DNA from: Telopea speciosissima
Taxonomy: Eukaryota; Streptophyta; Magnoliopsida; Proteales; Proteaceae
DNA length: 64,000 bases
Direction of reading: 5' to 3'
Assembly: GCF_018873765.1 (NCBI RefSeq)
Contig: NC_057925.1
Span: forward strand, 22,951,568 to 23,015,567
Numbering within the stretch: the first letter of the stretch is position 1; every line of letters starts with the position of its first letter. Shown here one piece after another: positions 16,065-44,544 of this stretch. Under the pieces are notes generated by a model, which made no database searches, was not told where the DNA came from, and was given only the letters and a program-made list of their open reading frames with translations. A program made the position numbers and the translations under genes.

Positions 16065-17890
16065 CTAGTGATAATAATTCCTTAATTTTTTTATGATTCG
16101 GAAAGTATCCTCGACCTTCTTCGTATTTGCATTCACAAACTGCATATCACAAAGGGAAAATGAGAATTAGAAAATGTAAGAAAGACAGAGGTTAGGTGGG
16201 GGGGTTGGGGGTTTGAGTTATTGTCAGAATTGGTTCAGTATATGTGCAAAGACATGACAGAACTTATGTTCTGCAACATATCTACTGATAATTAGTATCA
16301 TTACAAGGATCAAATATTGCCAAGCAAGGTCTATATGGGGCACACGATTAATGGGTCTTAGCCAGATGGGAGTTAATGATCCTAACTTTCTGACTTTTTA
16401 GGATCACTTGGATAAGATTGATAGCAGGAATGACTGCTGCATGCACAATTTCATTTCATCTTATATCCATCTTTCTTTGAGTTTCAGCTTACTAACCTTT
16501 ACACTTATCTCTTTCTTTGTTGCGCGCAATCTAGTGTATCCAAAATCAGAAATCCTCACCAAACTCCAGCTATTAACCTGTCCATAATTCCAAAACATTA
16601 TTGATAGTCCTTAATTTATTTTTATTTATTTATATTCAAACACTTCAGGCTAAAACAAAAGTTGAAAGGCAGGAGATGAAATATCTACTTACATTATCAG
16701 TGAACCCATCCAATGAGAATCCTGCCATTCCAATGATTGCATGAACTGGAGCCTTATAGTTGTTGTGGTCATATGTGTCAATCCCCCTTCTATCTCTAAA
16801 AGGCATGGCTTTGCAGACACCCTCTTGAAGGGAACAAGTTCTTTCATAGTTGTGGACATGGCCAAAAAGAACTAGATCAACCTGATTCATCATCAACAAG
16901 TGTTACTGTCATCCTTCAGTTTAGGATACTAATGAGTCTAAAAAATCTGAAATCCACTCTGAGCTTTGTTTTCCCTCATAAATCTTAATGCATCATAGTG
17001 TTCCTCCCCACCCCCCAAAGATCACTTGTATACCTTGTTGTGTACTAGTAAAGGCTCCAAGCTAGCAACAAAATTTGTGTCGACATTTGGTGGAAAGAAT
17101 GGAGGTGCAGATGAATACATGGGTCTATGCCTGTAATCAATCAAAGGAGTTCTTATGAGGCTCTTAAATGAAAAAGACTGATTCAAATAGAAGAGATGGG
17201 GTCTGATCATATTTACCCTGTAAAAATCACCCAAGGAGTTCTTGATCGATCAACTGAAAACAAGTCCTTTTTGATCCATTCATACTGTAACAGTTTTGAT
17301 GTTTTTATTATATGATTGGGAGAAATGATTTTAGAATTAAAAGGAGAAGTGATCAATCAGCAAGCTTATTCTTACTTGTTCAGAACCACAGCTGAAGTTA
17401 TGTTCAGTTGAAACTACAGTTAAATGAACAGGCCCTTGCTCTATGGAGTACCATGGCTTGTCCTTTCTAGTTCCGGGCATTGGAAAATAAGTCTCATAGG
17501 GAACTCCACATTCTCCACCTGAGTCCCATAGACCATAAACTGATCCAGAGTCTGGGTAATCTCTGCAAAATCTCATACAGTAGAAGGCATTATATCACAG
17601 ATTGCTTCAAACAGAAGGTTTACATGGCCCTCAGTTTACCATGAAGTCTAAAATGAAGAATGAGATAATGTCAACAGATGAGATCATGACAATTGAAAAT
17701 ACCTCTCATGGTTTCCAATTGCAGTCATGTAGGAAACATGAGATGCAACAGGTGAGATATGTTGAAGAAAGTAATCCCATTCCACTAAGAAGCCAGTGGC
17801 ATAGCTAATGTCTCCAATGTGGAAGATTGAGTCAACTTTTTCTGCATCAACTTCCTTAGATATAGCTGCCATCACTGATATTGAACCTGG
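16065..17890 (-). CDS. Purple acid phosphatase exons 7-13 (catalytic core and C-terminus)
   Basis: Exon 7 carries FHIGDISYATGFLVEWDYF and MTAIGNHER. Exon 8 carries SGGECGVPYETYFPMPGT and WYSIEQGPVHLTVVSTEHNF. Exon 9 has SRTPWVIFTG, exon 10 HRPMYSS and FVASLEPLLVHNK, exon 11 VDLVLFGHVHNYERT, GIDTYDHNNYKAPVHAIIGM and AGFSLDGF, exon 12 SWSLVRISDFGY, and exon 13 FVNANTKKVEDTFRIIKK with a TAG stop. Introns are 92-357 bp, normal for plants, in contrast to introns 4 and 6. All five metallophosphoesterase motifs are present. Some members of this long PAP class are annotated as inactive, so activity cannot be assumed. Confidence 0.9.
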
Positions 17891-20800
17891 CTGCATATTT
17901 CACAGAACAACAATGTGAGTTCAACATCCCTTCTTTCCAGTGATTTTGTTTCTTACAAAGATGAATACATGAGTTAGTCTTTTAGTATCATGTTCTATAG
18001 ATTTTGTAACAAACCAGAATCTAGGTAAACAAATCAAGAGAAGAAGAAGAAGAGAGAAAGGAGAGAAGAAAAGCAAGCCGCAAGGTGGGAGAGAGCACCC
18101 TGCGATAGGTAGTTGTGTATTCTGTTGTAGGAGGTTCTCTCCCCTTATATTAATAATAAAAGCACCAAACAAGAAGTCGGTTAGGGATTTTGATATTACC
18201 CCTAACCCCCTAACTATCCCTGAATTACATGAATGTACAAAAAGAAAATAACATTGAGACCCACAAAACCCAAATTGTAAGACAAAAATATCACTAGATT
18301 TTCAACACTCCCCCTCAAGCTGCAGCATATAGGTCACCCATGCTCAGCTTGTTACAACATGAGCGAAAACTAGGAGCAAACAATGACTTGGTAAACATGC
18401 CTGCCAACTGGTCTGAAGACAAAACAAATGGAGTCTCAACTAACTTCTTCATCATTGCATCTTGAACAAAGTGACAGTCTACCTCAATATGCTTGATCTG
18501 CTCATGATAGATAGGATTGCTAGTAATATAAATAGCTGCTTGGTTGTCACAATACATCTTCATTGGTGTAGGCACAGGAAAACCCAGCTCAAGAAGGAGA
18601 GACATAAGCTACATCAATTTTGCCGTAGTATAAGCCAGAGCTCTGTACTCTGCCTCAGCACTTGACCTGCTGATGGTGGTTTGATTCTTACTACGCCAAG
18701 TATCTAGATTGCCCCAAACAAATGTACAGTAACATGTGGTGGAGCGAAGATCGCTGATCGAGCCTACCCAATCTGCATCTGAATATGCAACTAAATCCAT
18801 GTCAATTAGGATGATAAATCAACCTTTCACCAGGAGCACCCTTCAAGTAATGGAGAATGCAGACAACAACATTCCAATGGGCCTTCTATGGAAACTGCAT
18901 GAATTGACTAAGGACATCAACAACAAAGGAAATGTCTAGTCTGGTAACTATAAGATAGATCAGCTTCCCAACAAAACTCATATATTGGTGCACATCTTTG
19001 AGAGGACAACCATCATCTACTCCAAACTTTTGATGAGGATCCATGGGGATATCCATTGGCTTTGATGCAAGCATACCAGTGTCAGACAAAAAATTTAAAA
19101 CATATTTTCTCTAGGATAGGCTGATGTCTTTCTTGTTTCTCATAACCTCAATACCAAGGAAGTAGTGGAGGTCACCTAGGTCCTTGGTCTGAAAATGTTG
19201 TAAATATGTTTTTATCTCTACAATACCAGCCACATCATCACTTGCAATGATGATATCATCCACATAAACAACCAAGACAACCAGTTTACCATTACGTCGT
19301 CTAACGAACACAGAATGATCAGAGTAGCATTGTGAGAATCCACAAGGCACCACAGTATCACTGAACTTCTCAAACCAAGCTCTGGGCGACTATATTGAAA
19401 TCATAAATTGCCTTTCATAATTTGCAAACCCAAGTACTATTCTCTCCTTGAGCAACATACCCTGGAGGTTGCTCCATATAAATCTCCACAAAAATGCATT
19501 CTTAATATCCAGCTGAAACAACAACCAATCATAGTTAAAAACCAGAGATATAAGTAACCGAACAGAGTTGAGCCGAGCAATAGGAGTGAAAGTCTTGAAG
19601 TAATCAACACCATAAGTTTGTGTATAGCCCTTGGCAACCAAGTGGGCCTTGAGCCTCTCAATAGACCCATTAGGTAGGTATTTAATAGTGTAAACCCAGA
19701 GACACTTAACTAAGTCCTTACCAGAGGACAGATCAACTAACTCCAGGTGTTATGGGTCAAGAGAGCATCCATTTCCACATCCATGGTAGTTTTCTAACTA
19801 GGAAGACAAAGACCCTCAGTATAATGGTTGGGGATAGTGGTAGCAGATAAAGATAAGGCAACATTGTGTATGGACGAGGGTAAGTGGGAGAGAGAAACAT
19901 CCTGATCAATATCAATAGGATACACAACATTGGACCGCTGGGTACAGGAACGCATACCTTTACGCAAGGAGATTGGTAACTCATCAAACAAGTAGGAGGC
20001 ATATCTTCACCAGAGGAATTAATGTAGTCCTAGATAGGTAGGAGACCTACTAGGAGCCAGATAACCAGGACCTGTAGAATTGCTAGTTCGATAGGGGCAG
20101 AATTGAGGTTTTTAGCTCAGATTTAGGGTTAGGATTAGGGTAATGAAAGTGAATCTTATATGGTAAAGCTAGGCAGGTTTAGGAGTTTAATGAACTATGA
20201 TTTGTAAATTTTAGATGGTTAAAATAGGTTAGATGGATTTGGGCAGCAACTAGGGTTAGGGTATTGAAAGATAGAAGATGATGAAATCTAGGGTAGGAAA
20301 TCAGGTGGTTGAATGGGTTTAATATTTAGGTTGAGTGTGGGTAGAGTTGAGGGGAATATATGCTAAAAGTTACAGCTAAATTAGATGGTTAAATCTTGAG
20401 TTATGGAGGTTTCCTAGTAGAGATAGGAGAGGGGTAAAAGTGTAATTTCAGACAATCGACTGGGTGGATGGTGCTGAAATTTGAATAAAGTCTCTCTTAG
20501 GGTTTGAGGAAGTTTCGATCAAATTTTTAGTAGGTTCTAACAGTTAGATTTGGTTGGGCAGAATTCTCACGAAAATCACCTGGCATGTGACCTTCTAGAA
20601 GGGAAGAAGAATAGTGGCAGGTTTTAGGGTTCTAATGGATCTATGGTATTAATGGCGGATGAGGAAGGTAGGCTAGACAGGGTGTAGATTGAACTAGGGT
20701 TTAGAGGAACGATTGGAGATAGGTAGGCTTAGGTTGGAGGATTAGAAGAAGAAGGATGTATGCTGTAACAGTAAACTAATTACTTGAAAAATAGATCTTC

Positions 20801-23800
20801 AATAGTAGCAGTAGCTTGAAAAAGATAGGGTCTCCCAATCTACAAGATGCAAGGAGATGAGTAGAAGATCCTCCCGGTACTACCAGACGCAAGGAGTCAT
20901 CTGGAGATCCACCAGTCCCTTCACCTTGATATGACTCACAAGGCACACTCACGATGGAGCAAAGGCAACAACTAAGGTAGCAAGCATAAAGCTGAGTTTT
21001 TATTAATCAAATTCGTATTCAATACTTGTCCCCCCGTACAACCTTATATAAAAGACTCAAAATTAGATTCCTACACTAAAAAGGAAAGACCTAACCTAAT
21101 CCTTGACCTATTAGGTAACTTAAACTGACTAGAAAACTAAAATAATAAAGGAAATAGACTCAAAACATGGTTGAACTTATAGAGTCCTAATCTAGCCCAA
21201 CTTACATCACATAACCACTTAACCAAGTCACATGATCATTTAAGTGATGACATAACTACTAATTACATAAAAATAAAAACTAAGGAATTAAAACAACTAA
21301 TCCTATATGCAACCTAATTACCCATATTTTAGGCCCATAAAAGTGGCCTATTACATAGAAAATCCATGGGATCAAAGGCCCAACATGTATATAGCCCGAC
21401 CCTAGACTTATTCCTAATAAAAAAAATAAGGCCATTTCGGTGATGAATCTGCATCAGGAAAAAACTAGTAGAGGTGGAGAAACGGTTGGAGTAGTAGGAA
21501 TCTTAGCCTATTGCACTGTCTTGTCTCAAGGCTGATAAACCTGTAATGGTGGTGGATCTGAAAAGGGAACTAAGGCAGGAACAGGAGGAGGAGCAACAAC
21601 GGTTCACTCATCCCCAGAATCAGGGGGAGATGGAGGAAAATAAGAACTTCCCTCAAAGAAGGTGAAATCAACACTCACAAAATACCTGTGGGACACAAGA
21701 TCATAACACTTATACCCTTTATGGGTACAAGAATAGCCGAGGAAAACACATTCAGTGGACCTCGGAGAAAGTTTATCATAGGCGATGTGTAAGTTTTGCA
21801 CAAAACAGACATTCAAAAACACACGGCGGTAAGCTAAAAGAAAATAGACTGGGAAAGACAACAAAAAATAGAGACTTATCAGTAAGAACAGACGAAAGCA
21901 TGTAGTTAATCAAATAACAAGCGGTTGACACTCCCTCACACCAAAACTGCTTCGGAACATGCATATGAAACAACTGGTTTGATGAATCATACCAGGTAGG
22001 CGAGAGCAGTTTGCAATAGATAGTGGTGTATTCTATCGTAGGAGGCTCTCTCCTCTTATTGATGTAGATTCATCATCGAAATGAGCTTATTTCTTTAGAA
22101 ATATGTCTAGGGTTAGGATATATATATATATATATTGAGCCTTTGATCCCAAGGGTTTTCTATTTAATAGACCACTTTAATGGGCCTAAAATATGAGTAC
22201 ATAGGTTGCATATGGGATTAGTCCTATACTTAATTTATTTTTATGTTTTTAATATTTTAAATTGAACCGGTCCAAATCTGGTTTGAACCAGTGGTTCAAT
22301 TTAAGTGATTTTAGTAATTTGTCTTTTAATTGTTTAGTTGGGCTGGATTATGACTCTATTTTGAGTCTATTTCAGTTTCCTAGTCCGTTTAAGTTACCTA
22401 ATAGGTTAAGGATAGGCTTAGATCTTTCCTTTTTAGTGTCTAAGGCTATTTTTGAGTCTTCTATATAAGTTTGTAAGGGAGGCCAGCATGGAACACGAAT
22501 TTGATTAATAAAAATTAGTTTTATGCTTGCTACCATTGTTGTTGTTGCCCCTTACTCTATTGAGTGTTGCCTTGTGATGTCAAGGTGAAGGGATTGGTGG
22601 ATCTCCAGTTGACTCCTTGCGTCTGGTAGTACCGGGAGGATTTGTTATAAGGGATTGGTGGACCTTTAATCAACTCCTTGCATCTTGTAGATTGGGAGGT
22701 CCTTCTTCTAGTTCTTCAAAGCTGCTGCCATTGAAGATTGAATTTTTCAAGTAGGTAGTTTATCAGCATTCAACCTTCTTCTTCTAATCCTCTAACCTAA
22801 GCTCCATCTACTCCTATTATCATCCCCTCTATTAATCCATAAATCTATTAGAACCCTAAAACCTGCAACTATTCTTCTTCCCTTCTAGAAGGTCACATGC
22901 AAGGTGATTTTCACGAGAATTATGCCTAGCCAAATCTAACCATTAGAACCTGCTAAAATTTTGATCGAATCTTCCTCTAACCCTAATAGAGATTCGATCC
23001 AAATTTCAGAACCATCCACCCACCTGATTGTCTGAAATTATACTTTTACCCTCTCTCCTACTTCTACTAGAAAACCTCCATAACTCCAGATCTAACCATC
23101 TGATTTAGCTATAACTTTCAGCATATATTCCCCTCCACCCTACCCATACTCGACCTAAATATTCAACCCATTCAACCACATGATTCGTGTTATTATGAAC
23201 CCTAGATTCCATCATCTTCCACCTTTCAAAACCCTAATACTAGTTGCTGCCCAAATCCATCTACCCTAATCTACCCATCCGAAACTCATTAAACCTAGAT
23301 CATTAGACTCCCCTACACTTGCCCAACTTTATTATATAAGATACACTCTCATTGACCTAACCATAACCCTAAAATTTGACCTAAAACCTCAATTCTGCCC
23401 CCATCAAACCATCAGCTTACAGATCCTGGTTGATTGGCTCCTAGTAGGTCTCCTACATATCTAGGACTATATTACTTATATTAATAATAAAAGCACCAAA
23501 CAAGAAGTTGGTTAGGGGTTTTGATATTAACCCTAACCCTCTAATTATCCCAGAATTACATGAATGGACAAAAAGAAATGAAAATAATATATAGACCCAC
23601 AAAACCCAAATTGTAAGACAAAAATACCCCTAGATTTTCAATAGATTGATAGGACCCCTAAGCTCTAAATTCACCTTTCATGTACATAAGAACCAAAGTT
23701 CATTACATACCCATAAAAGAGAATTAATGTGTTTTGAGGTTATCACCTGAATGTAGTGCTCAGTTGATGGATCAAGGGGGGCCTTTCCCATGTCGCCGTA

Positions 23801-26800
23801 TGCGATGAATTTGAGTTCATGTGATCCTCCAGCTGGGGGAGTACGGAATTGGGTTTGGTTGCTCCAACCAGTTGAACAACTGCATAAAATGAGTTTTAAG
23901 GTATATAAGATTATCAAGCATTGTCAACCCTAATACATTATATAAGTAAAGCAACACTATGGTCACAATGAACAAAGATTGTTATTCTTGGAAATATATA
24001 TGATACAAGGTGAGAGGTGGGATACCTTCCATAGCTATAGTAATAAGTGGTTGAAGGTTTGAGACCGATCATCACAGCAGAGTGAATGAAGCCAGGGTCA
24101 TGCCAACCAAAATCCGAGGCTGGGCAATCAGATCCAGAAGTATTACCTACCAAGTTTGAAGGATAATTAAACATATTACTGAGTGGAAAAATATATGTCT
24201 AACCTTTAACAATTTTGTTGTAGCAGTTCAAGAAAAAAAAAAAAACCTAAAAAAGGATAAAGCAAGACCAATATAACTTCAAATTAGAGTTATAAAAAAA
24301 AAAAAAACAAAGGCCTACTAAACTCATATATAAGTATGGGAGCCGTTTTAGTGGTTTGTTTGGTGGTTTGACCTAATATTAGCCATGTAGTAGATCAATT
24401 AGGGCTCAAGTTTTTTTTCCAAGTAGGTCCCATAGTACTTTGATTACTAATCAAATTTGCAGTAAACCAGAGTTGGCATTGTGATAAAATAAAGCCTTCA
24501 AGATTCATTACATTAGAAAAATAAATGAATGATTTAAAAATAGAAGAAAAAGATGCTAATACATAGGGTAAATTATTAATTTTGATGTGAAAGATGATGT
24601 ATTACCAATCTAGTTCTTCAAGCATGAGAATTCCAGGTGCGTAATACTTCATCATTTTATATATATAATATGGGGAAAAAGTTTTCTGTGCGGGAGTGTG
24701 GCCTATGCCAACACTCCCATGAGTCTATCTCTCTCCTCCCCATGTGAAAAGACACCTCTGCCCCCTTATTTTAAGGAGAAGAGAGATAGACACATGGGAG
24801 TGCTAGCGTAGGCCTCACTCCCGTACAGAAAACTGCTTCCCTATAATATAATTAATATATAGAGAAAAATATTTCTATGCTGCCTGTATGTAGTTTCCCT
24901 CTCACATGATTTTTTTATTATTATTTTCTCTCATTTGTTTTTGAATATGTGGGCCTCATATAGTTTGGGCTCTTGTTCATGCAAGGCCAATGGGAGAGCA
25001 TGTGAGGCATCAAGCAGGACATCATTTGCACATTTCATGGGGGGGGGGGGCGAATAGTCATTTGACCTGTTGCACAAAGAATGTTGCCAGTGGAAGACCC
25101 TCAAGCAGTACAACTTTCAAGCTAGCCTTGGGCTAGGAATGAATTAGGGAAAAACGAAGATAACTCTGCTAAGGTTCTTGATTTCTTTATTGATAGATGA
25201 ATGAATGAATGAATTCTCCTCTTTAGGAGCGACTGGGCTCTTATTTATACAAATTCATGCCCAATCCCTTTCCTATTCCATCCCTCCGATCTGCCAGAGG
25301 ACCTTTCCTTTCTGATAAGGTGGTCCCTGCATGCTCGGATTAGGAAACCTTTACAAGAACTGAGATTCTCTCATCGAATCTTGGGATCCTTCCGTATGTG
25401 ACACGTGAATTACGATTATCTGCGTGTACCCACTTGGAAGTTTACAACTATCTTTGCTGACGTGTCCAGGCCGGTATAACTGTCTTGGGCGTGACTTTTT
25501 GGGTTTTGGTTTGAGAACCGGTTTGCTTATAGCCTAAGTAGGGCCACGTGTAAAACAAGGATTGGGTGCACAGAAAGTGGTGTATCATTTGCCCCCGACT
25601 CCCCTTGCCTGAGATGAGGTATGGGGAGGAAGTTTCCTGGGTATCCCGTGCAGACGTGAATGCAGCTCGGTTTATATGTTCAGTGATGTTTACAAGTCGT
25701 GAACAAATCGTTTTTTCTTTTGGATCATATTTCTCCTTTAGACGACATTACCCTCCATGGGTCTTTTATAATCGTGCCGCCACTCGTCAATGTTTGCACG
25801 TGGGTGCAAAATATCTTTCGATTTTCACGCCTTTTGAGGGAAGCTTGATGGGATGTCATAAAGTTCAAATTTAAACTTTCTTGCTTTTTTGGTGTTTTCC
25901 TTGTAGAGGTAGCTTTTCTCATCCTCGAAATATGTGTCTCTTCTTCTTCTTCATCTTTGCATCTTGGCCGTTCGAGCAAAACGAATGGTTGGATTGGAAG
26001 CTTTGTTCCACTGCCCCCAAGAGTATAAAGCGTTCTAACTTCCCCTGTCTTTCCTTCTTCATCGTCTTCAAGTTTCCTTGCTAAAAAACCTTTTGAGTTT
26101 CTGAAGTCATCTTGTTCAGTGCTTCTTCTTTTCTTCAATTGCATCCCCTCTTGCTCAAGTAAGTTTTTCCTTTATCTTTCTTTTTATTTCTTCATTTGCT
26201 TTGCTTTTCTGTTCAGTCTGAGAGATGAGGAAATCTAAGAAAACTTCGGTCGCTGAGTCCAATCAAGAGGTGGACTCCTTGTTAGAAGAGGGTGAGAAGT
26301 TGTATCATGGAGAGGTTGCGAGAGGAAACCGAAGGGCTCCTCCCCGGTCATCCATGGAGGGCATTTGATGTAGGTTCAAGCACTAGGAAGAAGAAGAAGC
26401 CTTGACTTGGCTGTTTTGTGTTGGAGTCTTTCTTTTTTTTCTATACTTAGTTTTTTTTTTTTTTGTTTGAGCTCTTAGATTGAACCGGTCCAACCAATGG
26501 TCCAATTTAAGTGACTCTTTCCTATTGACTGCTTTTGTTTTATTTCTATTGGCTCTTAGAGCATCTTTTAAATTTTTTGTTTAAACTATGTTTTAGTCTC
26601 TCCCCCCCCCCCTCCACGATTTTAAGAGGGTGGAGTTGTTTTGTAACTAGGAATTAGATTTGGGATTCCTAATCCAGATCTGAATATTTGTAAGGCCTTT
26701 GGCCTTTTTTTTTACTATAAATATAACAATTGTGGGTAGGCTCCCCCACTATTTCCTGTATAAAATTTTCTTTCTTTTAAGCCTTGTTTGCTGCCATCGT

Positions 26801-32800: not shown

Positions 32801-35800
32801 ATTTTTGTTTTTATGTGTTAGCAAGTTATTAGACGCTTCAAGCCTTTCTTGTTCTCCCTGATTTTCAGTTTCTTTGTAATGGGTACTTGGCTTTTGTTGA
32901 TTCTTCAGCATCTTGTGTTCTTGAGTAGAAAGAAAGAGGTTTTATGGTCTTCTGTGTTATTCAACTTTTCTAAGAAGGCCGCTGCAGTTTTTTTCTCAAA
33001 ACAAAGAAAACACAACACTTCTCTTTCTAGAATAGCCTTGATCAAACCAGCATATAGCAGCTTAGAAGAATCCCAGTACCACAGTCCACACTCCCAACCC
33101 AAAAACTTTTATCAAATTAAAAATATTTACACACACATACATGGGTAAGAGAGAGAAAGAGAGGATCTAAATGCATGATTTCCAACCATGAAGGAATGAA
33201 TCGAAGGCTCGAAGGAGAGAATAAGATTTGAGCTGTTGAGAGATTTGCTACCTTCAGCAGCTGCCCTTTCCCCTTTAGCGATTAGGATCTGATGTAGGGT
33301 TTTGGTTTATGTTTTTTAAATTTTACATTGTGTGTTTGTTAATACAATACAGGGTCGGGCTGGGCCGGGCTCAACCCGAGGCCTAAACCCAAACCCGACC
33401 CTATCTTGTCGGGGCCAAGAAATTACTAAACCCTAACCCGCCCTACAGGCTGAAAAATCGAGCCGAGGCCCTGTTCGGGCTCAGGGAGGGTTAGGGCGGG
33501 TTCAGGCTGGCCGGGCTTTTTTGATACTCCTATATTCTGGTCGGATGACCATGATCTTTATTGGGGAAACGCCCCTATGGTGCAACTCACCATTATGGTC
33601 GGATGACCATTGTCTTCATTGGAGAAACACCCCTATGGTGCAACTCACCATTATGGTCCGATGACCATGATCTTCATTGGAGAAATGCCCCTATGGTGCA
33701 ACTCACTATTATGGTCAGATGACCATTGTCTTCATTGGGAAAACGCCCCTATGGTGCAATTCACCATTATGGTCGGATGACCATTGAATTTTTGGCGCAC
33801 CATTAGTAATAACATATGAAATTTGCTTAGAAGAATGATTACAAAGTTTAATTGCGAGAATAAACCATTGCTATAGTTTTATGAGTAAGCATTGGTATCT
33901 TTATTAGTCATAGCCACATAAAACTTTGGAACAACGTCAATTTTGATTCAAAACAACTGGGAACTCATTGAACTGACCTCATTGATAGAATTTTCGCAAA
34001 TTTTCTGCATTCCAAGACCGTGGTATGGGTACTCCCTCCAAAGTCTCCAAATGAAAAGCCCCTGGTGCCACTTGTTTGGAGATTCTATATGGTCCTTCCC
34101 AATTGGACGCTAGCTTTCCCAGGGATCTCGGGTCAGAGGCTTCTACCTTGCGAAGTACCAATTCTCCTTGGTGAAATTTTCTTAGTTTCAAATTCAAATT
34201 ATAATGGTGTGCCGTTCGCTACAGGTAAGCCGTGTTCCTTACCCGAGTTGTTTCTCGGATTTCCTCCAACAGGTCCAAATTTGATCTTAACTCCCCATCA
34301 TTAGCTTCTGGATTGTATAATTGCACCCTCATTGATGTTTCCCCTATCTCCATGGGGATTACTGCTTCGGTTCCATATGCCAGCATGAAGGGTGTTTCAC
34401 CTGTTGTAATTCTTATTGTTATTCGGTACGCCCATAAAATGCTAGGCAACTCCTCTGCCCATAATCCTTTGGCTGTCTCCAACTTCTTTTTGATTCCGTC
34501 CAGTAGGATTTTATTCATGGCTTCTTCTAGGCCATTGGATTGTGGGTGCGCTACCGAGGTCTTTCGCAGTTGAATTTCATGCTGATCACTGAATTCCTTG
34601 AATTTTTGCTCAAATTGCTTTCCGTTGTCAGTGATGAGTGTTCTTGGAATCCCATATCTATATATGACGGAGTAGAGGAAGAATCTCCAAACTTTCGCAG
34701 CTAAAATTACTGCCAAAGCTTCTGCCTCTATCCATTTAGTAAAGTAATCCATAGCCACAACCACAAATTGTCTACCTCCTGATGCCTTTGGGAAAGGACC
34801 TAGAATATCCATCCCCCAATGCGCAAAGGGTAATGGGCTTGAGATTGAAGTGAGCTCTGTGGCTGGCTGACGCGTGATCGGTGCAAACGTTTGACACTTG
34901 AGGCATTTGCGCACAAAACTCATAGCTTCCTTCCGCAGATATGGCCAAAAGCATCCCTGCCTGATGACTTTGTGGGCGAGTGCTATTCCCCCCAAGTGTT
35001 GTCTGCAAATCCCCATGTGAATTTCCCTCAGAACATATTCTGCTTTGGATGGCCTGAGACAATTCCGGTAGGGCATGGCATACGCTCTCTTGTAAAGCAC
35101 TCCCCCAATCATCATGTACTGTGCTACTCTCATCCTTATCTTTTTGGCTTCTTTCTTGTCCGTTGGGAGTGAGTCCCTTTGGAGATATGCTATTAGGGGG
35201 TCCATCCAGCAAGGTTCAACCTCAATAGGTAGCACGTCCTCGGTTTCTTCTATGCTGGGCGCACCGAGCACGTCAATGTATACGGTTCTGCCCAGATCTT
35301 GAAATTCCGTTGTGGCTAGCCTAGAAAGTGCGTCAACCGAGGCATTCTATGTTCGGGGTACCTGCAATATTTGAAAGCTGACGAACTCATGAATTAAGTT
35401 GTGCATCTTTCCTAGGTATTGTGCCATGCGTGGTTCCTTTGCCTCGTATTCTCCATTGACTTAATTGACCACCAACTAGGAGTCGCTATGCACGGTGATG
35501 TTCCTCACCACCAAACTCTTAGCCAGATTCAGACCTGCAATTAGGGCTTCATATTCTGCTCCGTTGTTTGTGGTCTGGAATTCAAATCTTAGTGCATACT
35601 GCACTAAGAATCCCCCTGGGCTTGTCAATATCAGGCTAGCGCCACATCCGTTAGCATTAGATGAACCGTCCACGAACAATGTCTAAGTTTCTGTTACCTC
35701 CCCAGCTTCAGTCTTTGGTGCTATCTCCTCATCTGGTAAGGTGCACTCGACGACAAAGTCTGCAAGGGCTTAGGCCTTAATGGCAGTACGAGGCGTATAT

Positions 35801-38800
35801 TGGATGTCAAATTCTCCCAGCTCTACCGACCATGCCACTAGCCTCCCAGAATGGTTGGGCTTGGCCAGGATTTTCTTCAGAGGCTGGTTTGTTATTACTT
35901 CTATGGTATAGGCTTGAAAATAAGGTCTCAACTTCCAAGCAACCGTTATCAGAGCATAGGCGTACTTCTCCACATTGTTGTATCTGATTTCTGCATCTAG
36001 GAGTACCTTGCTGACATAGTAGATGGGTCTCTGTACCCGTCCGTCTCCTCGGATCAATACCGCGCTCACCGCTACTGTAGTAATGGATAAATAAAGCTGG
36101 AGCATGTTCCCTGGCTCCAGCTTGGTCAAGAGTGGTGGTTGGGCCAAATATCTCTTTAATTCTGTGAACGCTGTCGTCCACTCAAAAGTGAGCTTGGTCC
36201 CCTTCGTTTCTCTCTCCTGTGCTCGGTTTTTTAATGCCTTGAAAAAGGGTAGGCAGCGGTTGTCGGAAGCAGAGATAAATCTTCCTAGCGCCGCTACTCT
36301 CCTTGTCAACTCTTGCAAGTCTTTCATTCTGCCTGGTGGATGCATCTCCAGTATGACCTTGATTTTAGCTGGATTAACCTCTATTCCTCTTTTTGAGACC
36401 ATGAACCTAAGGAACTTCCCTGAGGTGACGCCAAAGGCACATTTTGTCGGATTCAACTTCATTTTGCTTTCCCTTAAGACCTGGAATGGCAGGAACGCCT
36501 CATCTAGGTCGGAGATGTGATGTTTTGCCTTCAACCTTTTCATCAGCATATCATTTACATATACCTCCATATTGCGCCGCCCTATTTGACCCTTGAAGAT
36601 GTGGTTCACCATCCATTGATACGTGCCCCAGGCATTTTTCAACCCGAAGGGTATACGGGTGTAACAGTATGTATCCCTTCTGGCGATGAAGGAAGTTTTC
36701 AGAATATCAGGTTTGTACATCCTAATCTGATTATATCTTGAATAGGCGTCCATGAAACTCAACATTTCATGGCCAGCCGTTGTATCTATCAATAAATCAA
36801 TACGAGGCAAGTGGTAGTAGTCTTTAGGGCATGCTTTATTCAGATTAGTGAAATCAATACACATCTGCCATTTGACGTTAGGCTTTGGCACCATTACAAC
36901 ATTAGAAAGCCATTCTAGATAGATGGCCTCATCTATGAAGCTTGCTTCTAGCAGCTTGGTCACCTCTTCGATCACTTTCTCTTGTCGCTCTGGGGTGAAG
37001 GTTCTCTTCTTCTAAAAAAATGGCTTGGAGGTAGGGTACACGCTGAGCCTGTGCTCGACTAATTCCCGATCTATCCCAAGCATGCCGGATGTCAACCATG
37101 CAAATATATCAGTGTTGGCTCCCAAGAAACTCATGAGGGCGCTCCTCTGCTCGCTATTCAAACTTGCCCCAATCTGCACGATACTTTTTGCATCTCCTTC
37201 AATAATCTCTATGGGGACCAAATCCTCCGCTGGCTCTGTTCTTTCATGCTCGGTATTATCCCGGTTGTCATCCAGGTTGATTAAGAGCATCTGTGGCTCT
37301 TGGCTCTTAGATATCCCTCGTAGCATCTCCTGATAGTTATCTGACTTCCTCGGCACTCCCCTACTCCCTGATCGGTTGGGAACTTCATTACCAGGTGCGG
37401 GGTGGAGACCACCGCCCGTAGAGCGTTAAGCCCCAATCGTCCTAATATTCCATTGTGGGTGGAGTTTACCTTCACCACCAAAATATTCATCCTCACCATA
37501 ACGAGCCTAGCTCCATCCTCACCGTCACCAATAGTTCAATTGACCCCTCAACATGTACCGGGCCCCATTGAATCCGTATAGAGGGGATTCAACCCTTTTC
37601 AGCATCTCGGGTTTCAAAAGCATTTTCTCAAATGCATCGTAATATAAGATGTCAAATGAGCTCCCGTTATCTACAAGGATCCTTCCCATAGTATAATTGG
37701 CGATAGTCATCTTGATCACCAGAGCATCATCGTGGGGAGACTGGATGTCAGATAAATCTTCATCCGAGAAGGTAATCTGATGCTCGGTCGTCCTACTCTT
37801 GTCTGGTACTTCTGTTTGGAACATGCTCTGAACATGGTTTTTTCTTGAGTTGGAGGACTCGCCTCCTAGCCCTGGGCCTCCATATATCGTGGCTATTTCC
37901 CTTACGGGGGTGTTCTCAACATGTTGTTTCCCTCTAGCATGGTCTTCTCTGTCCAACCGAGCAGGTGGGGAGACTGAATGGGGAGACTGGATGTCAGATA
38001 AATCTTCATCCGAGAAGGTAATCTGATGTTCGGTCCTCCTACTCTTGTCTGGTACTTTTATTTGGAACACGCTCCGAACATGGTTTTTTCTTGAGTTGGA
38101 GGACTCGCCTCCTAGCCCTGGGCCTCCATATATCGTGGCTATTTCCCTTACGAGGGCGTTCTCAGCATGTTGTTTCCCTCTGGCATGGTCTTCTCTATCC
38201 AACCGAGTAGGTGATCTGGGCTTCGACTCGGGTCGATAGTCTTGCCTCCTATCATGGCCATCTTTCTTGACAAACTGGCCTAGGCGGCCTCTCTGGATGA
38301 GTGCTTCTATCTCATCCTTCAGTTGCCTGCAGTCTTCGGTGTCGTGGCCATGGTCTTGGTGAAATTGGTAGTATTTATTCTTATTGCGCTCATGCGCAGG
38401 TTTCACCATTTTAGCCGGCCAGCACTGGATCACCTGGTCCTTTATCTCGTTTAAGATGTATGCTCGATTGTGAGTGAGTGCTGTGTAAATAGGTTCTGGC
38501 TCCACGTTACTCTTGGGAACCCACGCCTTCTAGTCCTCTCTCTTCCTCCTCCCCTCCTTCTCATCTCTGCCGCGCTTTGAACCGCTCTCCCCGACCTGTA
38601 TGTCTTTCTTTTCTTAGTCCTCCTTCTCGGGTTTATCTTCTTTTTCTTACTCGGCGGCCAGAACTTCAGCCAGATTGATATATTTCTCATACCTGAGAAA
38701 AGTTCATACATATCTCCTGGTTCATCCATGATTAAGGACTTCTTCAACTTGACATCTCGGATGCCGCTACACAACGCTTGAAACTTCACCATCTAATCTA

Positions 38801-41800
38801 GGTTTCGCACCTCCAGGGCCTCCTTGTTGAATCTTGTAAGAAAGTTCTTGATTGACTCGTCAGGGCGTTGCTTTATGGCCAGAAGATTGGCGGCAGTCTT
38901 CTTGTGGACCCTGCTGCTCACAAAGTGAGCCAGAAAGGCTTGCTCCAGGCCCACAAAGTTGAAAAGGGAGCGCGGCTGAAGGCGCGAGAACCATTGTCTC
39001 GCTGCCCCTTTCAGGGTGGAGGGGAACGCTCTACACATTATGGCGTCCGAGGCTCCTTGAAAGGACATCAAGGACTTAAAAGTTTCCAAGTGATCTTCTG
39101 GATCCGTTGTGCCCACGTATTGCTCTATGGTCGGCATCTTGAACCCCTTCGGCAGAGGTTCCAACCGGATTTCATCCGTAAACGTCAAATCAATAGTGAA
39201 GTGGAAGTCATGATTAGGGGCTAGGTTCTTTCCTCCCATGACCTCCTGGATCTGATCCTACAGTTCCAAGACTTTGTCGTTCATAGCTTGTTCAACCTTG
39301 GTCATCTGGGAACCCTGATTCTTGCCGTTCCCTGGCACTTCTTTCTCCTTCCGCCTGGCATTGTTTGCATTACTGTGATTCTCACTATGCTCCAAGGAAG
39401 GAGTTCTTTCTCTATCCTGCGGTGGATGTGGGGGTATTTGAATCCCCTGTAAGAAATCACACTGCAGCTCCACCATCTGATTCATCTTGTCCTGCCAGCG
39501 AGCCTGCAACGCATCGAACTGCTCCACCGTCACGTACCACGGTGGGTCTCCAGAGAGTCTTGGATGAGATTCCTCCTGCTGTGATTCATTCACTTCGAGG
39601 ATAGGATCTTCCGCCGCCTGGCAAAAGCTTGCCGGTTCTCCCAAAGTTCCTCCCTGGGCGACGGCGGGAGCAACAGTTGGAGCAGCGGCTGCTGTAGCGG
39701 CGACGGTGGCAGCCCTTGTGACTTTTGACTGATTTCTGGTGTTAGTCATGGTGGGAACTTTGCAGGTCTCTATTCTTCGCTTCCCACAGACGGCACCAAA
39801 ATGTTGCACAAAGAATGTTTCCGGAGGAAGACCCTCAGGCAATACAACTTTCAAGCTAGCCTTGGGCTAGGAATGAATTAGGGGAAAACGAAGATGACTC
39901 TGCTAAGTTTCTTGATTTCTTTATTGATAGATGAATGAATGAATGAATTCTCCTCTTCATGAGAGACTGGGCTCTTATTTATACAAATTCATGCCCAATC
40001 CCTTTCCTATTCCATCCCTCCGATCTGCCAGAGGACCTTTCCTTTCTGATAAGGTGGTCCCTGCATGCTCGGATTAGGAAACCTTTACAAGAACCGAGAT
40101 TCTCTCATCGAATATTGGGATCCTTCCATATGTGACACGTGAATTACGGTTATCTGCGTATACCCACTTGGAAGTTTACAACTGTCTTTGTTGACGTGTC
40201 TAGGCTAGTATAACTGTCTTGGGCGTAACTTTTTGGGTTTTGGTTTGAGAACCGGTTTGCTTATAGCCCAAGTAGGGCCACGTGTAAAATAGGGATTGGG
40301 TGCATAGAAAGTGGTGTATCAGATCCCATTATTGATACTATAGGAGATTGGTATAAATATAAAATAAAAAAGATTAGTGAAATTTCGTATCCACAACCAA
40401 CTCATTTTACCATTCAACATATCACACATGGACAAATGAAGATGTGTCTTTAGGTGATCCGGATCCACTCCAACGAAGGCATCGCCCAATGAGCATCCCA
40501 ACGGTTAGGCTGCATGGGTGGGCGATCTCCTCATTGGAGAGGATCCCGATCGTCTTTAGGGGACCCCACACCCATCTATCAGCTTGAATATGAGTCCAAA
40601 ACAAAAACATGGGAAGGGGTAAATTTGTGAGTTTCAAGGTTCTTGAAATTAGGAAAGTACAATATCATTAGAGTAAAATTTAATGATATTTCTTAAAATT
40701 TTAGTTCACCTTAATTTAGCTTTTTAATGTGCTTGTACTATGCTACTTGTTAAAAGGTACTTCTCATAAAATTGCTGTGGGGTCCTCTATCTAATCTATT
40801 CAGGATGAAAAGGAATTATGGCCAAGGATTCCTTTTGAGATTTTACTAGATATTCTTGACTTGAATTTTTTTCTTCTCATATCTATATTCTGTCTTGTGG
40901 GAAAGAGGCTGCAACCATGATGCAAGTAGGGGACTAAAATTAGTGGTTAATATCACATAGACCCACCCTCGTTGTCATATGACAAGTCGATGATGAGGAA
41001 ATGTCACCAACCAATGTGACTTGCAACAATCCTAACAATTATTAGATCATAATAATTTTTTAGGAAAGGGATCTTTGAGCTACCAGCAAGGAGTGCACCA
41101 CTGAGGTGTGACAAAATAGTATTGTATATAAATATATCCAAGGAGACAGAAAAATAATTTCATTGGAGAGAGAAAAAGATCTATATAGGTGCTAGTATAT
41201 CCATTTTAGCGATTTAGAGAATCTTTTCCTAATTTCTGATTTCCTGATTGGAAAATGGGGAGTCAACTAATGGAGGACTCCTTAATTACATTGGATTGGG
41301 TTTTGTGAAATCAATTTTATTTTGAAAAAAAAAAAGTAATAAAGGGTGATACTATATGGTGCAAGTGAATGTTTTTAGGATTTTGATCCTCTCCAATTCC
41401 TAAAAAAGTGTATAATGTGGTAGTGCTAGGTGGAGATGTTGACACCTGGCAGCTCAGACATCCAATGGTCTATATCAATGAGCTCAAACCGTTGGATGTC
41501 CGAACTGTCAAGTGTCGACATCTCCACCTAGCATTGCAGCACTGCACACCTTTATGAATTGGAGAAGATGATTTTCCATGTTTTTAAGAGGGTTCCTAGA
41601 GCTGATAAAAAATGACTATAGGAGAAATGGTGAGCAAGATTTTAAGAATCGAGGATTGATGAATCGGTCAATTTGGATTAGAATCGATAGTGATTGATTA
41701 CGATTTCCATCAATCAGACACGGTCGATTCACATTCAAAACCCTAGAAATTCTCTGATTTTGGATGTGGAGACCTATTCTAAGGTTCTTGAAGATCGATT

Positions 41801-43969
41801 CCGACGGATTCCGATGCCCTGATGGTGAGGAATGAGATGCTTCAAGACTTGTGAAATATGACCTCCAAATAAAGGTAATCGGATGGCAATGATACATGTA
41901 GATGACCCAATTAATTGGAATAAAAGTGAGTTATTGTTGTAGTTGTTGTCCCTAGACACCTGACCGGGAATCCTAGTAGCATTGCTCATCTTTGTTGGTG
42001 TTCCCTGGAACTGGATAGCTGACTAGGGAACCCATGTAGACGTGACTTGGGAGTCCCATCCCTTATCTAAGTTGCCAAGCCAACCATTAATGAGACGCGT
42101 AAAAGAGGTGTGGGGCTGTCGATTTTGCCAGCCTTAAGGCTTAAAGCCCATCCACCGCCGCTTTTAATTGAGGACACAAGCGTCGCACACACTGTAGATT
42201 GCATTAATGTAGGAGGCCACCATAAAACCTATCCTATCCCCGCTCCCCTCCCTCAAGCTTGAAAACCCATTTTAGAGTAACCAGGCGGGACAACATTAAA
42301 CCAGGCCTAACCCAATACAAAACCAAACCAAACTCTAACCAATCAACTGATCAATGGTGCCTAGGCCTTGTGTGTTAGGGGCTAGGTTCTAAATGAACCC
42401 AAATTTTAGGATTTCAGTTTAGACAGTAAGCAAAATTTCATTAAAATTGGTTTTTTTTTTTTTAATATCATTTGAGACAAAATTGTGTTGATTTATTTAT
42501 TTATTTTTGGTAAGAATTGTGTTGATTTATAACTTTATTTATATTACTTGTACAATATAAATTACACAATACAAGAGAGTGTTTTATATATATGTAGAGA
42601 AGTTTCCTATGGGGGAGTGTGCACTAAGACAGTGTGGGGGGTGAAATGACCTCCCCACCCTCAGTAAAAGGCAGATATATATCCCATCCCCAAGATGCTA
42701 ATGCACCTCCTCTCATTGGCCCCAATGCACACGCAAAGGCCACATTCCCCCATAGAGAATGGTCTCCCATATATTATATACTAATTCTATTAAATATAGA
42801 CAAATATCCAAAATTCCAATAATATGAAAAAAAAATAGAAACTGTGAAAAAATTGTACCATAATTCTGAAATCTAAAATTTTCCAAAACTACCAAAATAA
42901 TCCAAAATCAAAAAGATTTTTCGGCCCCCTTGCAAGGTTGCGAAATTGAAATTTCACAAGATGGAATTTAATCATACAGTTGGTGTGCAGATGGGATTCA
43001 ATTAAAATAGTATACTTAAAAGGCTTCGGAATTTAATCATACAATTGGTGTGCAGATGGGATTCAATTAAAATAGTATACTTAAAAGGCTTCATTTCCAT
43101 TTAATAAACTGCCTTCAAAACTTTTTACCCAAAAAAAAAAAAAACTGCCTTCAAAACTAGCGCAAGGCCCGAGCCAAGAAAAATGCCAAGATCTACCCGC
43201 GAACTTATATAATATGGTTCATACAAATCAAAAAAATAAAAAAAATAAAAAAAATAAAAAAATAAAAAAACCATGAGATTAAACTATCAATTCATATTTA
43301 TGTATAAACGATTTAATCAAGTGTATGGACACTAGATTGAACTAACTTAATATGAGATAGATTAAGAGACTTGATTTAATATGTTCCATAACTTCTAACG
43401 TATCAATCAAATACTTACAAGAGCATATGTCATATCTAATTAAATAGAGAAAGAGAGTATTTCAACTCACCATTACACATATCGTTTGGGGTAAAAGTTG
43501 TAACTTGTGCCGTCCTAATTAGTGATGTGAGGGATTTTCCATCTCCATACTGAACCTGTTGAGGTGTTTTATGTCCACTAACCCACGTTAATCTCATCTG
43601 CCCAACCAAAACATACGTCAATCATCATTATCTCATTAACAAAGAAAATAAAAAAACAGTTAGAGAAAAAAAAAAAAAAAAAAAAAAAAAGTTACCGATC
43701 TTCCAGTGGAATCAACACTTGAAAGATGACCAAACAACGGAGCCTTCGGATTAGCAAACCTAATAGGACCAGACCTCTTAATGATGCAAGGGTTTTGGAA
43801 TCCACCACCAAATAACACGAACTCTATATCAGTTCTAATGTTAACAACATGGAAAGTTAATGTTCCATTGCAACTATTATTTCTTTCTTGTTTCTTGCAA
43901 TTCATATAATTAGGATCTTGGCTCATGTACTGTCCCTGTAACCCAAATACAGAAAAACACAAAAAAATC

Positions 43970-44000
<31 letters not shown>

Positions 44001-44544
44001 CTATTAAATTTTTATTTTCTAATTTGAATAAGATTACAAAACCTAACCTTCACAGGATAATGGCAGAGAAGAGGAAGATCACTAGTATCTCCAGTCAGAA
44101 CATAGTTAAGTTCAATATCCAGACAAGCCTTCACACTGCATGCCCATCATAACAGAAAATCCATCAGAGAAAGATGAAAGTGATGACAACCATGATGAAA
44201 TACCAAAAGAAAAAAAAGAGTACTTACTCTTTATCAGAATGAGAAGGTGTGATCATGGCAATCCAATCTTTTTCTGAAGGATTTGAAACTCCAGTGACTG
44301 TAACTTTTACATATTCTTCATTCATAAGTCCAGATGGGGATTTCGAATTAACTCTGATTAGAATGTTCTGATTCTGCGAACACTCAACCAATGTTCTTCT
44401 GTTCAATACCCGGAAATCTGATCTGTGGACATGGAGTTTGGATTTGGAGTTGATAACTTGAACAGGGGAAGAAGAAGCTGATGATATCAAAACAAAGAAG
44501 AACAGAAATAGAAAGAATAGAAAATTTATTTTGGGAGACTTCAT
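16065..44544 (-). CDS. Purple acid phosphatase, nucleotide pyrophosphatase/phosphodiesterase-like, 13 exons
   Basis: Thirteen exons with GT..AG borders and matching phases join to 1,911 bp (636 codons plus TAG). Minus-strand exons in order: 44,544-44,228; 44,135-44,048; 43,935-43,696; 43,597-43,471; 24,146-24,026; 23,879-23,747; 17,890-17,703; 17,562-17,376; 17,284-17,217; 17,130-17,034; 16,881-16,693; 16,577-16,497; 16,139-16,065. The product has a signal peptide (hydrophobic residues ~8-25), a fibronectin-III-like N-terminal domain, and a metallophosphoesterase core with GDMG (~326), GDISY (~368), GNHE (~401), a GHRPMY histidine (~491) and GHVH (~529), the usual metal-ligand motifs, then the C-terminal domain. 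It is the long PAP class (about 620-650 aa), probably secreted or vacuolar. The start at 44,544 opens the signal peptide; an in-frame GTG upstream is ignored. Introns 4 (19.3 kb) and 6 (5.9 kb) are filled by retroelements, yet no exon is broken. Confidence 0.9.
18005..18307 (-). repeat. 3' LTR of copia element C
   Basis: A 303-bp block beginning TGTAAC and ending CAACA on the plus strand. From about 18,083 onward it matches the split right LTR; shared text includes TTAATAATAAAAGCACCAAAC. Confidence 0.8.
18315..21973 (-). pseudogene. Copia element C pol remnant
   Basis: RNase H is at 18,315-18,800, with a changed terminal block ending MFTKSL. Reverse transcriptase is at 18,886-19,670, with LVVYVDDIIIASDD near 19,250-19,275 and QLDIKNAFL near 19,490-19,520. 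The reverse transcriptase N-terminal part extends to about 20,002. The integrase C-terminal block (LSPRSTECVFLGYSCTHKGY near 21,700-21,790) is at 21,604-21,973, beyond the inserted solo LTR. Gag, protease and the integrase core are missing. Multiple frameshifts and stops are present. Confidence 0.82.
20020..21456 (-). mobile_element. Solo LTR, family S, copy 1 (inverted)
   Basis: A 1,437-bp noncoding block. Read on the minus strand it starts TGATGCAGATTCATCACCG and ends in CTACATTA, with flanks GGAAT and GGAAA. It is the inverse of copy 2 (22,060-23,474) and related to copy 3 (26,366-27,455). A TATA-like box (TATATAAG on the minus strand) lies near 21,045. TG..CA-type ends, 5-bp flanks, a promoter and no ORF fit a solo LTR. 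Confidence 0.75.
22060..23474 (+). mobile_element. Solo LTR, family S, copy 2
   Basis: A 1,415-bp block starting TGATGTAGATTCATCATCG and ending GACTATATTA, flanked by perfect 5-bp duplications CTTAT (22,055-22,059 and 23,475-23,479). It splits the 5' LTR of copia C exactly, because the flanking LTR halves rejoin to match the 3' LTR. A TATA-like CTATATAAG sits near 22,460. Confidence 0.85.
23747..24146 (-). CDS. Purple acid phosphatase exons 5-6
   Basis: Exon 5 (24,146-24,026) continues from exon 4 with TSGSDCPASDFGWHDPGF and SAVMIGLKPSTTYYYSYG. Exon 6 (23,879-23,747) has TGWSNQTQFRTPP, then IAYGDMGKAPLDPSTEHYIQ with the first metal-binding aspartate in GDMG. The phases at both ends (2 nt carried from exon 5 into exon 6, none from exon 6) fit the neighbouring blocks. 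The pair is isolated between gypsy D on the right and copia C on the left. Confidence 0.88.
24147..25067. other. Phosphatase intron 4, left part
   Basis: No coding sequence recognised. It contains A-rich runs and the foldback MITE listed separately, then continues to the LTR of gypsy D. A G10 run at 25,041-25,050 lies just before the LTR. Confidence 0.6.
24672..24841. mobile_element. Foldback MITE with 8-bp target duplication
   Basis: About 170 bp in which the left arm (TTTTCTGTGCGGGAGTGTGG, then CACTCCCATGAGTCTATCTCTC) pairs with the inverted right arm over nearly the whole length. The flanks are TATAATAT on both sides (24,664-24,671 and 24,842-24,849), consistent with an 8-bp duplication, though AT-rich. 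There is no coding capacity. Confidence 0.7.
25068..25587 (-). repeat. 3' LTR of gypsy element D
   Basis: A 520-bp LTR paired with 39,802-40,321. It contains a TATA-like stretch and the (AATG)n-like segment GATGAATGAATGAATGAATT. The polypurine tract read on the minus strand lies at about 25,588-25,604. Confidence 0.9.
26225..30411 (+). pseudogene. Accessory ORF region of gypsy D (Transposase_28-like plus coiled coils)
   Basis: Plus-strand coding region, opposite to gag-pol. It starts MRKSKKTSVAESNQEVDSLL at 26,225 and is interrupted by a solo LTR at 26,366-27,455. It continues with a domain resembling PF04195, the 'putative gypsy type transposon' family (RHYRVAPSQLVPNCWR at about 27,815-27,865 and GWYYFRQR). 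Two introns fit GT..AG and keep frame: 28,232-28,317 and 28,815-28,881. Downstream are a long charged coiled coil (28,890-29,205) and a second coiled-coil segment (29,890-30,411) ending in a proline-rich tail. In-frame TAG at 28,051, 29,950, 30,112 and 30,211 and TAA at 29,206 break it. Such antisense accessory ORFs near the 3' LTR are known in Tat-lineage elements; their function is unknown. Confidence 0.75.
26366..27455 (+). mobile_element. Solo LTR, family S, copy 3, inside gypsy D
   Basis: A 1,090-bp noncoding block with ends TGATGTAG and TACATCA, flanked by perfect GCATT duplications (26,361-26,365 and 27,456-27,460). It resembles copies 1 and 2 in the AACCGGTCCAA region and in the conserved 3' part containing ACTCCTTGCATC. 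A TATA-like box (CTATAAATATAAC) lies near 26,716. It splits the accessory ORF of gypsy D. Confidence 0.85.
30412..31870. other. Noncoding part of gypsy D between accessory ORF and repeat array
   Basis: No conserved coding sequence recognised. AATAAA motifs in similar contexts (CAATAAAGAAC near 29,780 and 31,723) could act as polyadenylation signals for the plus-strand accessory transcript, and their repetition suggests a duplicated 3' region. Confidence 0.45.
31871..32508. repeat. 58-bp minisatellite in gypsy D, left block (about 11 copies)
   Basis: Tandem copies with a 58-bp period; a typical unit contains GGTCGGATGACCATTGTCTT and then GGGGAAACGCCCCTATGGTG. Units differ at a few bases each. 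The array lies between the ends of pol and the accessory ORF. Confidence 0.92.
32509..33532. mobile_element. hAT-like nonautonomous element inside the minisatellite
   Basis: 1,024 bp with ends TAGGGGTGTCAA and, inverted, TAGGAGTATCAA, and GC-rich subterminal repeats of GGGCCGGG type that pair between the two ends. The flanks CATTATGG (32,501-32,508) and TATTCTGG (33,533-33,540) agree at 6 of 8 positions, fitting an 8-bp hAT target duplication. No transposase is seen; the short ORF near 32,850-33,148 is not recognisable. Confidence 0.75.
33533..33795. repeat. 58-bp minisatellite in gypsy D, right block (about 4.5 copies)
   Basis: Continuation of the 31,871-32,508 array with the same 58-bp unit, separated from it only by the hAT-like insertion. 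The array ends within a unit near 33,790. Confidence 0.9.
33979..39750 (-). pseudogene. Gypsy D gag-pol remnant (Tat type)
   Basis: Gag starts at an ATG at 39,750. The retrotransposon gag domain (ARQWFSRLQPRSLFNF, near 38,960-39,010) is followed by a zinc-knuckle-like FHQDHGHDTEDC near 38,320-38,360. The protease signature is VDNGSSFDIL near 37,650-37,680. Reverse transcriptase is at about 36,400-36,975 with its active site changed to YVND. The first RNase H ends near 35,770, and a second, archaeal-type RNase H (FVDGSSNANGCGASL) is at 35,476-35,679. Integrase is at about 33,979-35,270 with an HHCC finger and MDILGPF, ITDNG and the later glutamate. Stops include TAG at 39,258, 38,793 and 34,219; at least one frameshift lies near 38,500. 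The element is dead for autonomous replication. Confidence 0.88.
37735..38226 (-). repeat. In-frame 246-bp tandem duplication in gypsy D gag-protease linker
   Basis: Two adjacent copies (near 37,735-37,980 and 37,981-38,226) share long blocks such as CTGGATGTCAGATAAATCTT. The period is 246 bp, or 82 codons, so the frame is kept and the encoded linker is doubled. The copies differ at a small number of bases. Confidence 0.88.
39802..40321 (-). repeat. 5' LTR of gypsy element D
   Basis: A 520-bp LTR paired with 25,068-25,587. The primer-binding region is directly on its left, at about 39,786-39,801. Confidence 0.9.
41385..41571. mobile_element. Foldback MITE (CTCCAATTC family)
   Basis: About 187 bp whose arms pair along their length: the left arm has TAGGTGGAGATGTTGACACC and the right arm has its near-inverse GTGTCGACATCTCCACCTA, with outer ends ATCCTCTCCAATTCC and GAATTGGAGAAGAT. 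The central loop is short. A single-arm relative occurs at about 56,397-56,480. Confidence 0.75.
42598..42768. mobile_element. Foldback MITE related to the 24,672 copy
   Basis: The left end AGAAGTTTCCTATGGGGGAG and the inverted right end (CTATGGGGGAATGTGGCC) form an imperfect inverted pair. The same end motif, AAGTTTTCTGTGCGGGAGTG, is seen in the MITE at 24,672, so the two are probably relatives. Exact ends are uncertain. Confidence 0.5.
42962..43093. repeat. 65-bp tandem duplication in intron 4
   Basis: Two adjacent copies of GGAATTTAATCATACARTTG..GGCTTC differ at about one base, indicating a recent duplication. Copy 1 ends near 43,028 and copy 2 near 43,093. Confidence 0.85.
43471..44544 (-). 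CDS. Purple acid phosphatase exons 1-4 (signal peptide and N-terminal domain)
   Basis: Exon 1 (317 bp) encodes MKSPKINFLFFLFLFFFVL, a signal peptide, then the start of the N-terminal fibronectin-like domain with the motif VTVTGVSNPSEKDWIAMITP. Exon 2 (88 bp) has LTGDTSDLPLLCHYPVK. Exon 3 (240 bp) has TLTFHVVNIRTDIEFVLFGG and IRFANPKAPLFGHLSS. Exon 4 (127 bp) has MRLTWVSGHKT and ends TTFTPNDMCNG. Donors are GTAAGT, GTTAGG, GTAACT and GTGAGT; every acceptor is preceded by CAG. Phase 1 at the end of exon 4 matches exon 5, 19.3 kb away. Long A and T tracts (43,667-43,690; 43,971-44,000) in the short introns are likely assembly-sensitive. Confidence 0.88.

Follow-up and report, generated by a model that had tools for sequence, protein, structure and literature searches.

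An apparently intact purple acid phosphatase gene of Telopea speciosissima with introns lengthened by two LTR retrotransposons

That plant introns can be filled with retroelements is well known. A study of rice (PMC7145194) reports that 4,227 of 37,866 gene models contain heterochromatic retroelement introns, 5,809 in all, with many such genes transcribed and a subset dependent on OsIBM2; for both rice and Arabidopsis it describes that heterochromatin-bearing introns can need IBM2-type factors against premature polyadenylation. In Sapria himalayana, 53.1% of genes are reported to have introns of at least 1 kb and 23 genes to have introns of more than 100 kb, with many expressed (PMC10246380). 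Among the entries in the literature listings that we consulted, none appeared to concern long retrotransposon-bearing introns in purple acid phosphatase genes.

The gene that we describe here is like the rice genes in having LTR elements within the introns of a protein gene, though it is known from sequence alone. It shares long introns with Sapria, beside which its 19 kb is modest. In that company it is a well-preserved but unremarkable case.

Gene model and predicted product

Within the window, by which we mean the whole 64,000-nt stretch of T. speciosissima DNA that was analysed, the gene runs on the minus strand from 44544 to 16065 (Table 1). Its 13 exons, when rejoined, give a CDS of 1,911 nt that encodes 636 residues and a stop codon without any internal stop, and all 12 introns have GT..AG borders. 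The first-pass annotation had claimed the 13 exons, their borders and phases, and the absence of a stop, and each of these was recovered as claimed, with the junctions 43471/24146 and 23747/17890 exact. Of the gene's span of 28.5 kb, the ten introns other than introns 4 and 6 take up 86 to 357 bp each.

Table 1. Coordinates of the gene, of the elements within its introns, and of related copies (positions are those of the window unless contig C8 or C10 is named)
Feature	Position	Strand	Remarks
Exon 1	44228..44544	-	ATG; N-terminus hydrophobic by inspection; homologous, with ATG, in paralogs A, C, F and G; counterpart in paralog B homologous, no start codon found
Exon 2	44048..44135	-	rebuilt model and paralog borders
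Exon 3	43696..43935	-	with exons 1-2, fn3_PAP domain (residues 75-197); paralog borders
Exon 4	43471..43597	-	rebuilt model and paralog borders
Intron 4	24147..43470	-	19,324 bp
Gypsy LTR retrotransposon	25068..40321	-	intron 4, in the gene's orientation; 15,254 bp; coding frame broken
Gypsy LTRs	25068-25587 and 39802-40321	-	520 bp each
Gypsy gag	39257-38796	-	
Gypsy RT/RNase H	37011-35773	-	
Gypsy integrase	35346-34222	-	
Exon 5	24026..24146	-	rebuilt model and paralog borders
Exon 6	23747..23879	-	metal ligand D327 (PPD1 D271)
Intron 6	17891..23746	-	5,856 bp
Copia, decayed	~18005-23643	-	intron 6, in the gene's orientation; ~5.6 kb
Copia LTRs	23475-23643 (partial 5' LTR) and 18005-18307 (3' LTR)	-	
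Exon 7	17703..17890	-	ligands D369 (D312), Y372 (Y315), N402 (N345)
Exon 8	17376..17562	-	rebuilt model and paralog borders
Exon 9	17217..17284	-	rebuilt model and paralog borders
Exon 10	17034..17130	-	ligand H491 (H434)
Exon 11	16693..16881	-	ligands H530 (H476), H532 (H478)
Exon 12	16497..16577	-	rebuilt model and paralog borders
Exon 13	16065..16139	-	stop codon; matched in B, D and G; no match in A or C
Paralog A	C10 23.2175 Mb		open over exons 1-12; exon 13 unmatched
Paralog B	C10 23.280 Mb		open over exons 1-12; no start codon found; exon 13 matched
Paralog C	C10 23.297 Mb		open over exons 1-12; exon 13 unmatched
Paralog G	C8 45.418 Mb		open over exons 1-12; exon 13 matched
Copy D	C10:20815456-20821480		exons 5-13 only in the stretches read; frameshift in exon 6
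Copy E			exons 6-11; exon 6 broken, stop in exon 9, other exons missing
Copy F	C10:21697303-21698371		exons 1-4 only
Further partial copies	C10 20.822-20.831 Mb; C8 45.442 Mb and 45.472 Mb		near D (C10) and near G (C8)

The predicted protein carries, in order, the Pfam domains fn3_PAP, Pur_ac_phosph_N, Metallophos and Metallophos_C (110.5, 65, 62.3 and 43.7 bits, all above the cut-off), and by this architecture it is a plant purple acid phosphatase of the large fn3_PAP type. The closest solved structure is that of lupin PPD1 (PDB 3zk4; E 1e-97), whose Fe-Mn centre has seven reported ligands (PMC4062093). The two proteins align over residues 87-632, and all seven ligands (D, D, Y, N, H, H, H) are in place, the residue numbers of the 3zk4 chain and the published ones differing by a constant 18. 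Because the domains and the counterparts of all seven ligands are present, the protein looks catalytically competent. The hydrophobic N-terminus suggests the secretory route, and the product would be a secreted or endomembrane bimetal phosphohydrolase. It is likened to PPD1 by this structure match.

The roughly 257 residues encoded by exons 1-4 include no metal ligand; all seven ligands lie 3' of intron 4, and six of the seven lie 3' of intron 6. We consider it very probable that this is an intact, ordinary plant purple acid phosphatase gene of the PPD1-like type, whose introns have been lengthened by two LTR retrotransposons.

An Rfam search within the 64,000-nt window gave no match at gathering scores. 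Upstream of the gene lies another copia element (45576-50715; LTRs 95% identical, K2P 0.035), and as about 1.0 kb separates its end from the start codon, it delimits the promoter region. Farther along, plus-strand stretches at 59776-61134 show galacturonan-binding and EGF domains of the wall-associated kinase type and are perhaps the next gene. Large near-tandem direct repeats with a period of about 0.8 kb, 87-91% identical, occupy 61723-63959.

Related copies elsewhere in the genome

Searching the same genome with the predicted protein turned up 75 exon-level matches (69 of 155 candidates scored). Besides more distant phosphatases, these included a family on contigs C10 (20.8-23.3 Mb) and C8 (45.4 Mb). 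Seven stretches were examined one exon at a time. For six copies a model was built, its splice borders being sought solely in the phase of the window gene.

The internal borders of exons 1-12 all lie at most 11 bases from their expected places in paralogs A, B, C and G. The exception is intron 7, which C and D possess; A, B and G lack it, their exons 7 and 8 being fused in frame. Copy D has a GC donor after exon 11. Because A, B, C and G keep the same splice borders, the gene model is better than would be expected by chance.

The two long introns are a different matter. Intron 4 measures 874 bp in A, 3025 bp in B, 1259 bp in C and 2393 bp in G, against 19,324 bp in the window gene, and for intron 6 the corresponding values are 92, 361, 155 and 118 bp against 5,856 bp. 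By this comparison, in which intron lengths were set against those of paralogs only, the exon plan is evidently old and common to the copies, and of these five genes solely the window gene has been stretched to this extent.

Of these copies the window gene has diverged furthest, being 65-66% identical to A, B, C and G over 564 aligned residues. No near-identical intact copy was found elsewhere in the genome among the 69 of 155 candidates that were scored, and the strongest other matches in that set reach about 74-76% over exon-sized stretches. Own-genome relatives that we take to be PPD1/PAP27-like are 34-43% identical over the longer exons and 57-60% identical over two short ones.

Single halves occur in this family, as exons 1-4 in F and, in the stretches read, exons 5-13 in D. 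We therefore asked whether exons 1-4 and exons 5-13 could be two separate half-genes in line, not one transcription unit. An unrooted tree of the 3' half places the partial copy E beside the window gene, with weak support (56), but we judge the two-gene reading to be very improbable. In trees of both halves the window gene is the longest branch and the most divergent copy; E shares more amino acid identity with D (81%) than it does with that gene (68%); the window gene's identities to the paralogs at third positions are similar in the two halves (0.52-0.57 for the 5' half and 0.56-0.63 for the 3' half); and the order, the strand and the junction phase of the exons are all correct. At the protein level, identity to the paralogs is 0.55-0.59 in the 5' half and 0.68-0.71 in the 3' half, and a similar gap between the halves is seen for A against C (0.65 and 0.80). 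The half-by-half comparison thus fits a single gene. Copies F and D both break at intron 4, the 19-kb intron of the window gene, and by their third-position identities to C (0.78 and 0.89) these two do not seem to be the parts of a single gene.

The two retrotransposons

The element in intron 4 bears the marks of Ty3/gypsy: paired LTRs, gag, and RT ahead of integrase, in a frame that is interrupted at several places. An ORF on the plus strand within it (27472-28050) matches PF04195, "putative gypsy type transposon". The LTR pair is 95.0% identical and gap-free (K2P 0.052). Each LTR is the nearest copy of the other, at 95% against 91% for the next best, with 40 copies scored of 310 genome candidates. 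Since they are nearest to each other among the scored copies, the pair is compatible with one insertion.

The flanks of the gypsy element show no clean 5-bp target duplication (TGACC vs GATCC); the duplication may have decayed with the age of the insertion. The lack of one is also what might be expected if the long introns were an artefact of assembly, a reading that we find scarcely credible. The window is without any N, the gypsy LTRs are 95% identical to one another when the other 38 copies listed reach at most 91% to the query LTR, and the copia element retains a near target duplication.

Inside the gypsy element, a 58-bp tandem repeat forms two arrays, at 31874-32509 (about 11 units) and 33534-33786 (about 4 units). 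Near-palindromic, MITE-like repeats of about 185 bp are found in intron 4 (24664-24850 and 41386-41569) and upstream of the gene (44984-45170), and the small palindromic repeats of intron 4 have relatives in or near the paralogs. Without the gypsy element intron 4 would measure about 4.1 kb, still longer than intron 4 of A, B, C or G.

The decayed element in intron 6 retains fragments of RVT_2 (RT) and SH3_retrovirus, and its flanks, CAATC and AAATC, match as a target duplication at four of five positions. The RVT_2 fragment, the partial LTR pair and the 4/5 duplication are marks of Ty1/copia. Its LTRs have a K2P of 0.085 over 163 sites, an earlier, wider cut of the pair having given 0.090, and this pair too is compatible with one insertion. 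Intron 6 without this element is about 0.2 kb. A 1.4-kb inverted repeat (20017-21456 and 22060-23477, 76% identical) lies inside the copia element and flanks an integrase-end fragment; if transcribed, it might fold into a long imperfect hairpin.

The first-pass annotation had put about 25 kb of copia and gypsy DNA in these two introns. That figure holds for their summed length, which is 25,180 bp; the two LTR elements themselves amount to about 20.9 kb, and the remaining 4.3 kb or so is intron remainder with small palindromic repeats.

At plant substitution rates of 7e-9 to 1.3e-8 per site per year, the LTR divergences date the gypsy insertion to about 2.0-3.7 My and the copia insertion, on 163 sites, to about 3.3-6.0 My. 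In substitutions per site, the insertions lie at a depth of about 0.026 (gypsy) and 0.042 (copia). The gypsy element was probably inserted after the copia element, an order taken from two LTR divergences with large standard errors (about 0.01 and 0.02).

Selection on the exons and presumed transcription through the long introns

We compared the window gene with A, B, C and G over 564 gap-free codons, using a branch codon model on an unrooted tree without an outgroup. Besides copies D, E and F, we excluded the further partial copies of Table 1 (C10 20.822-20.831 Mb, C8 45.442 Mb and C8 45.472 Mb). B contributed no N-terminus, as its start codon was not found, and exon 13 was omitted for the paralogs. 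Omega on the window branch was 0.257 versus 0.239 elsewhere, and equality of the two could not be rejected (p 0.65). An omega of 1 on the window branch was rejected (LRT 86.8, p ~1e-20). These values show long-term purifying selection across the lineage. The window branch has a dS of about 0.73, including the stem to the other copies in the unrooted tree, and because the insertions are far more recent than that (about 0.026 and 0.042), the omega signal comes mainly from before them.

For the time since the insertions we let the CDS decay neutrally in simulation, at the LTR rate, and scored survival of the frame, the start and stop codons, and all splice dinucleotides. On the gypsy clock, survival was 0.06 at the full LTR rate, 0.24 at half and 0.49 at a quarter of that rate; on the copia clock it was 0.0047, 0.067 and 0.26, and with the wider LTR cut (K2P 0.090) 0.003, 0.05 and 0.23. 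These figures cover substitutions and splice sites. The gypsy pair has no gaps and so provides no indel rate, and in the copia pair two gaps were counted, one of them an artefact of the cut end, so that products including indels are overstated. The lower rates are a fair comparison because LTRs probably mutate faster than genes. The full-rate values suggest selection after the insertions. The claim that selection has kept the exons, made in the first-pass annotation, is thus sustained for the lineage as a whole, and for the period since the insertions (0.06 and 0.005) it is suggested.

These figures bear directly on whether the gene is a silent relic, shut down by the insertions and drifting, with its frame unbroken so far by chance. 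The insertions are young relative to the age of the gene, half-rate neutral survival is appreciable (0.24 for gypsy and 0.07 for copia, the latter for substitutions and splice sites), and loss is frequent in the family, D and E being broken and F partial. Nevertheless we think a relic unlikely: full-rate survival on the copia clock is only 0.005, all ligands, splice borders, and start and stop codons are intact, and the omega of the branch is not significantly above that of the rest of the tree (p 0.65).

For an intact gene we propose the following history. The introns would at first have been compact, as they are in the paralogs; the copia element would then have entered intron 6 and later, probably, the gypsy element intron 4, to produce the long gene. 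RNA polymerase would pass through the 28.5 kb, and the spliceosome would remove both long introns. By analogy with rice and Arabidopsis, IBM2-type factors may be required against premature polyadenylation in elements of the same orientation: because both elements are sense-oriented, such polyadenylation signals as they may carry would face the gene's transcript. The motif AATAAA occurs 23 and 3 times in sense in introns 4 and 6, respectively, and 17 and 7 times in antisense, without a consistent sense excess.

One could go further and imagine the gypsy element as a switch. Polyadenylation inside it would yield a short mRNA for the 257 or so residues of the N-terminus and the fn3 domain, read-through would yield the enzyme, and the balance between the two would depend on IBM2/EDM2-type chromatin factors and perhaps on phosphate supply. 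We offer this as a long shot.

Members of the Proteaceae are reported to live on phosphorus-poor soils (PMC4260170), and phosphatases are of ecological interest in this family for that reason. The intact-gene reading that we favor would make this locus a clean, datable case in which a compact gene has grown to about 28.5 kb, mostly through two retrotransposons, with its frame whole, and for which the more compact paralogs in the same genome are built-in controls.
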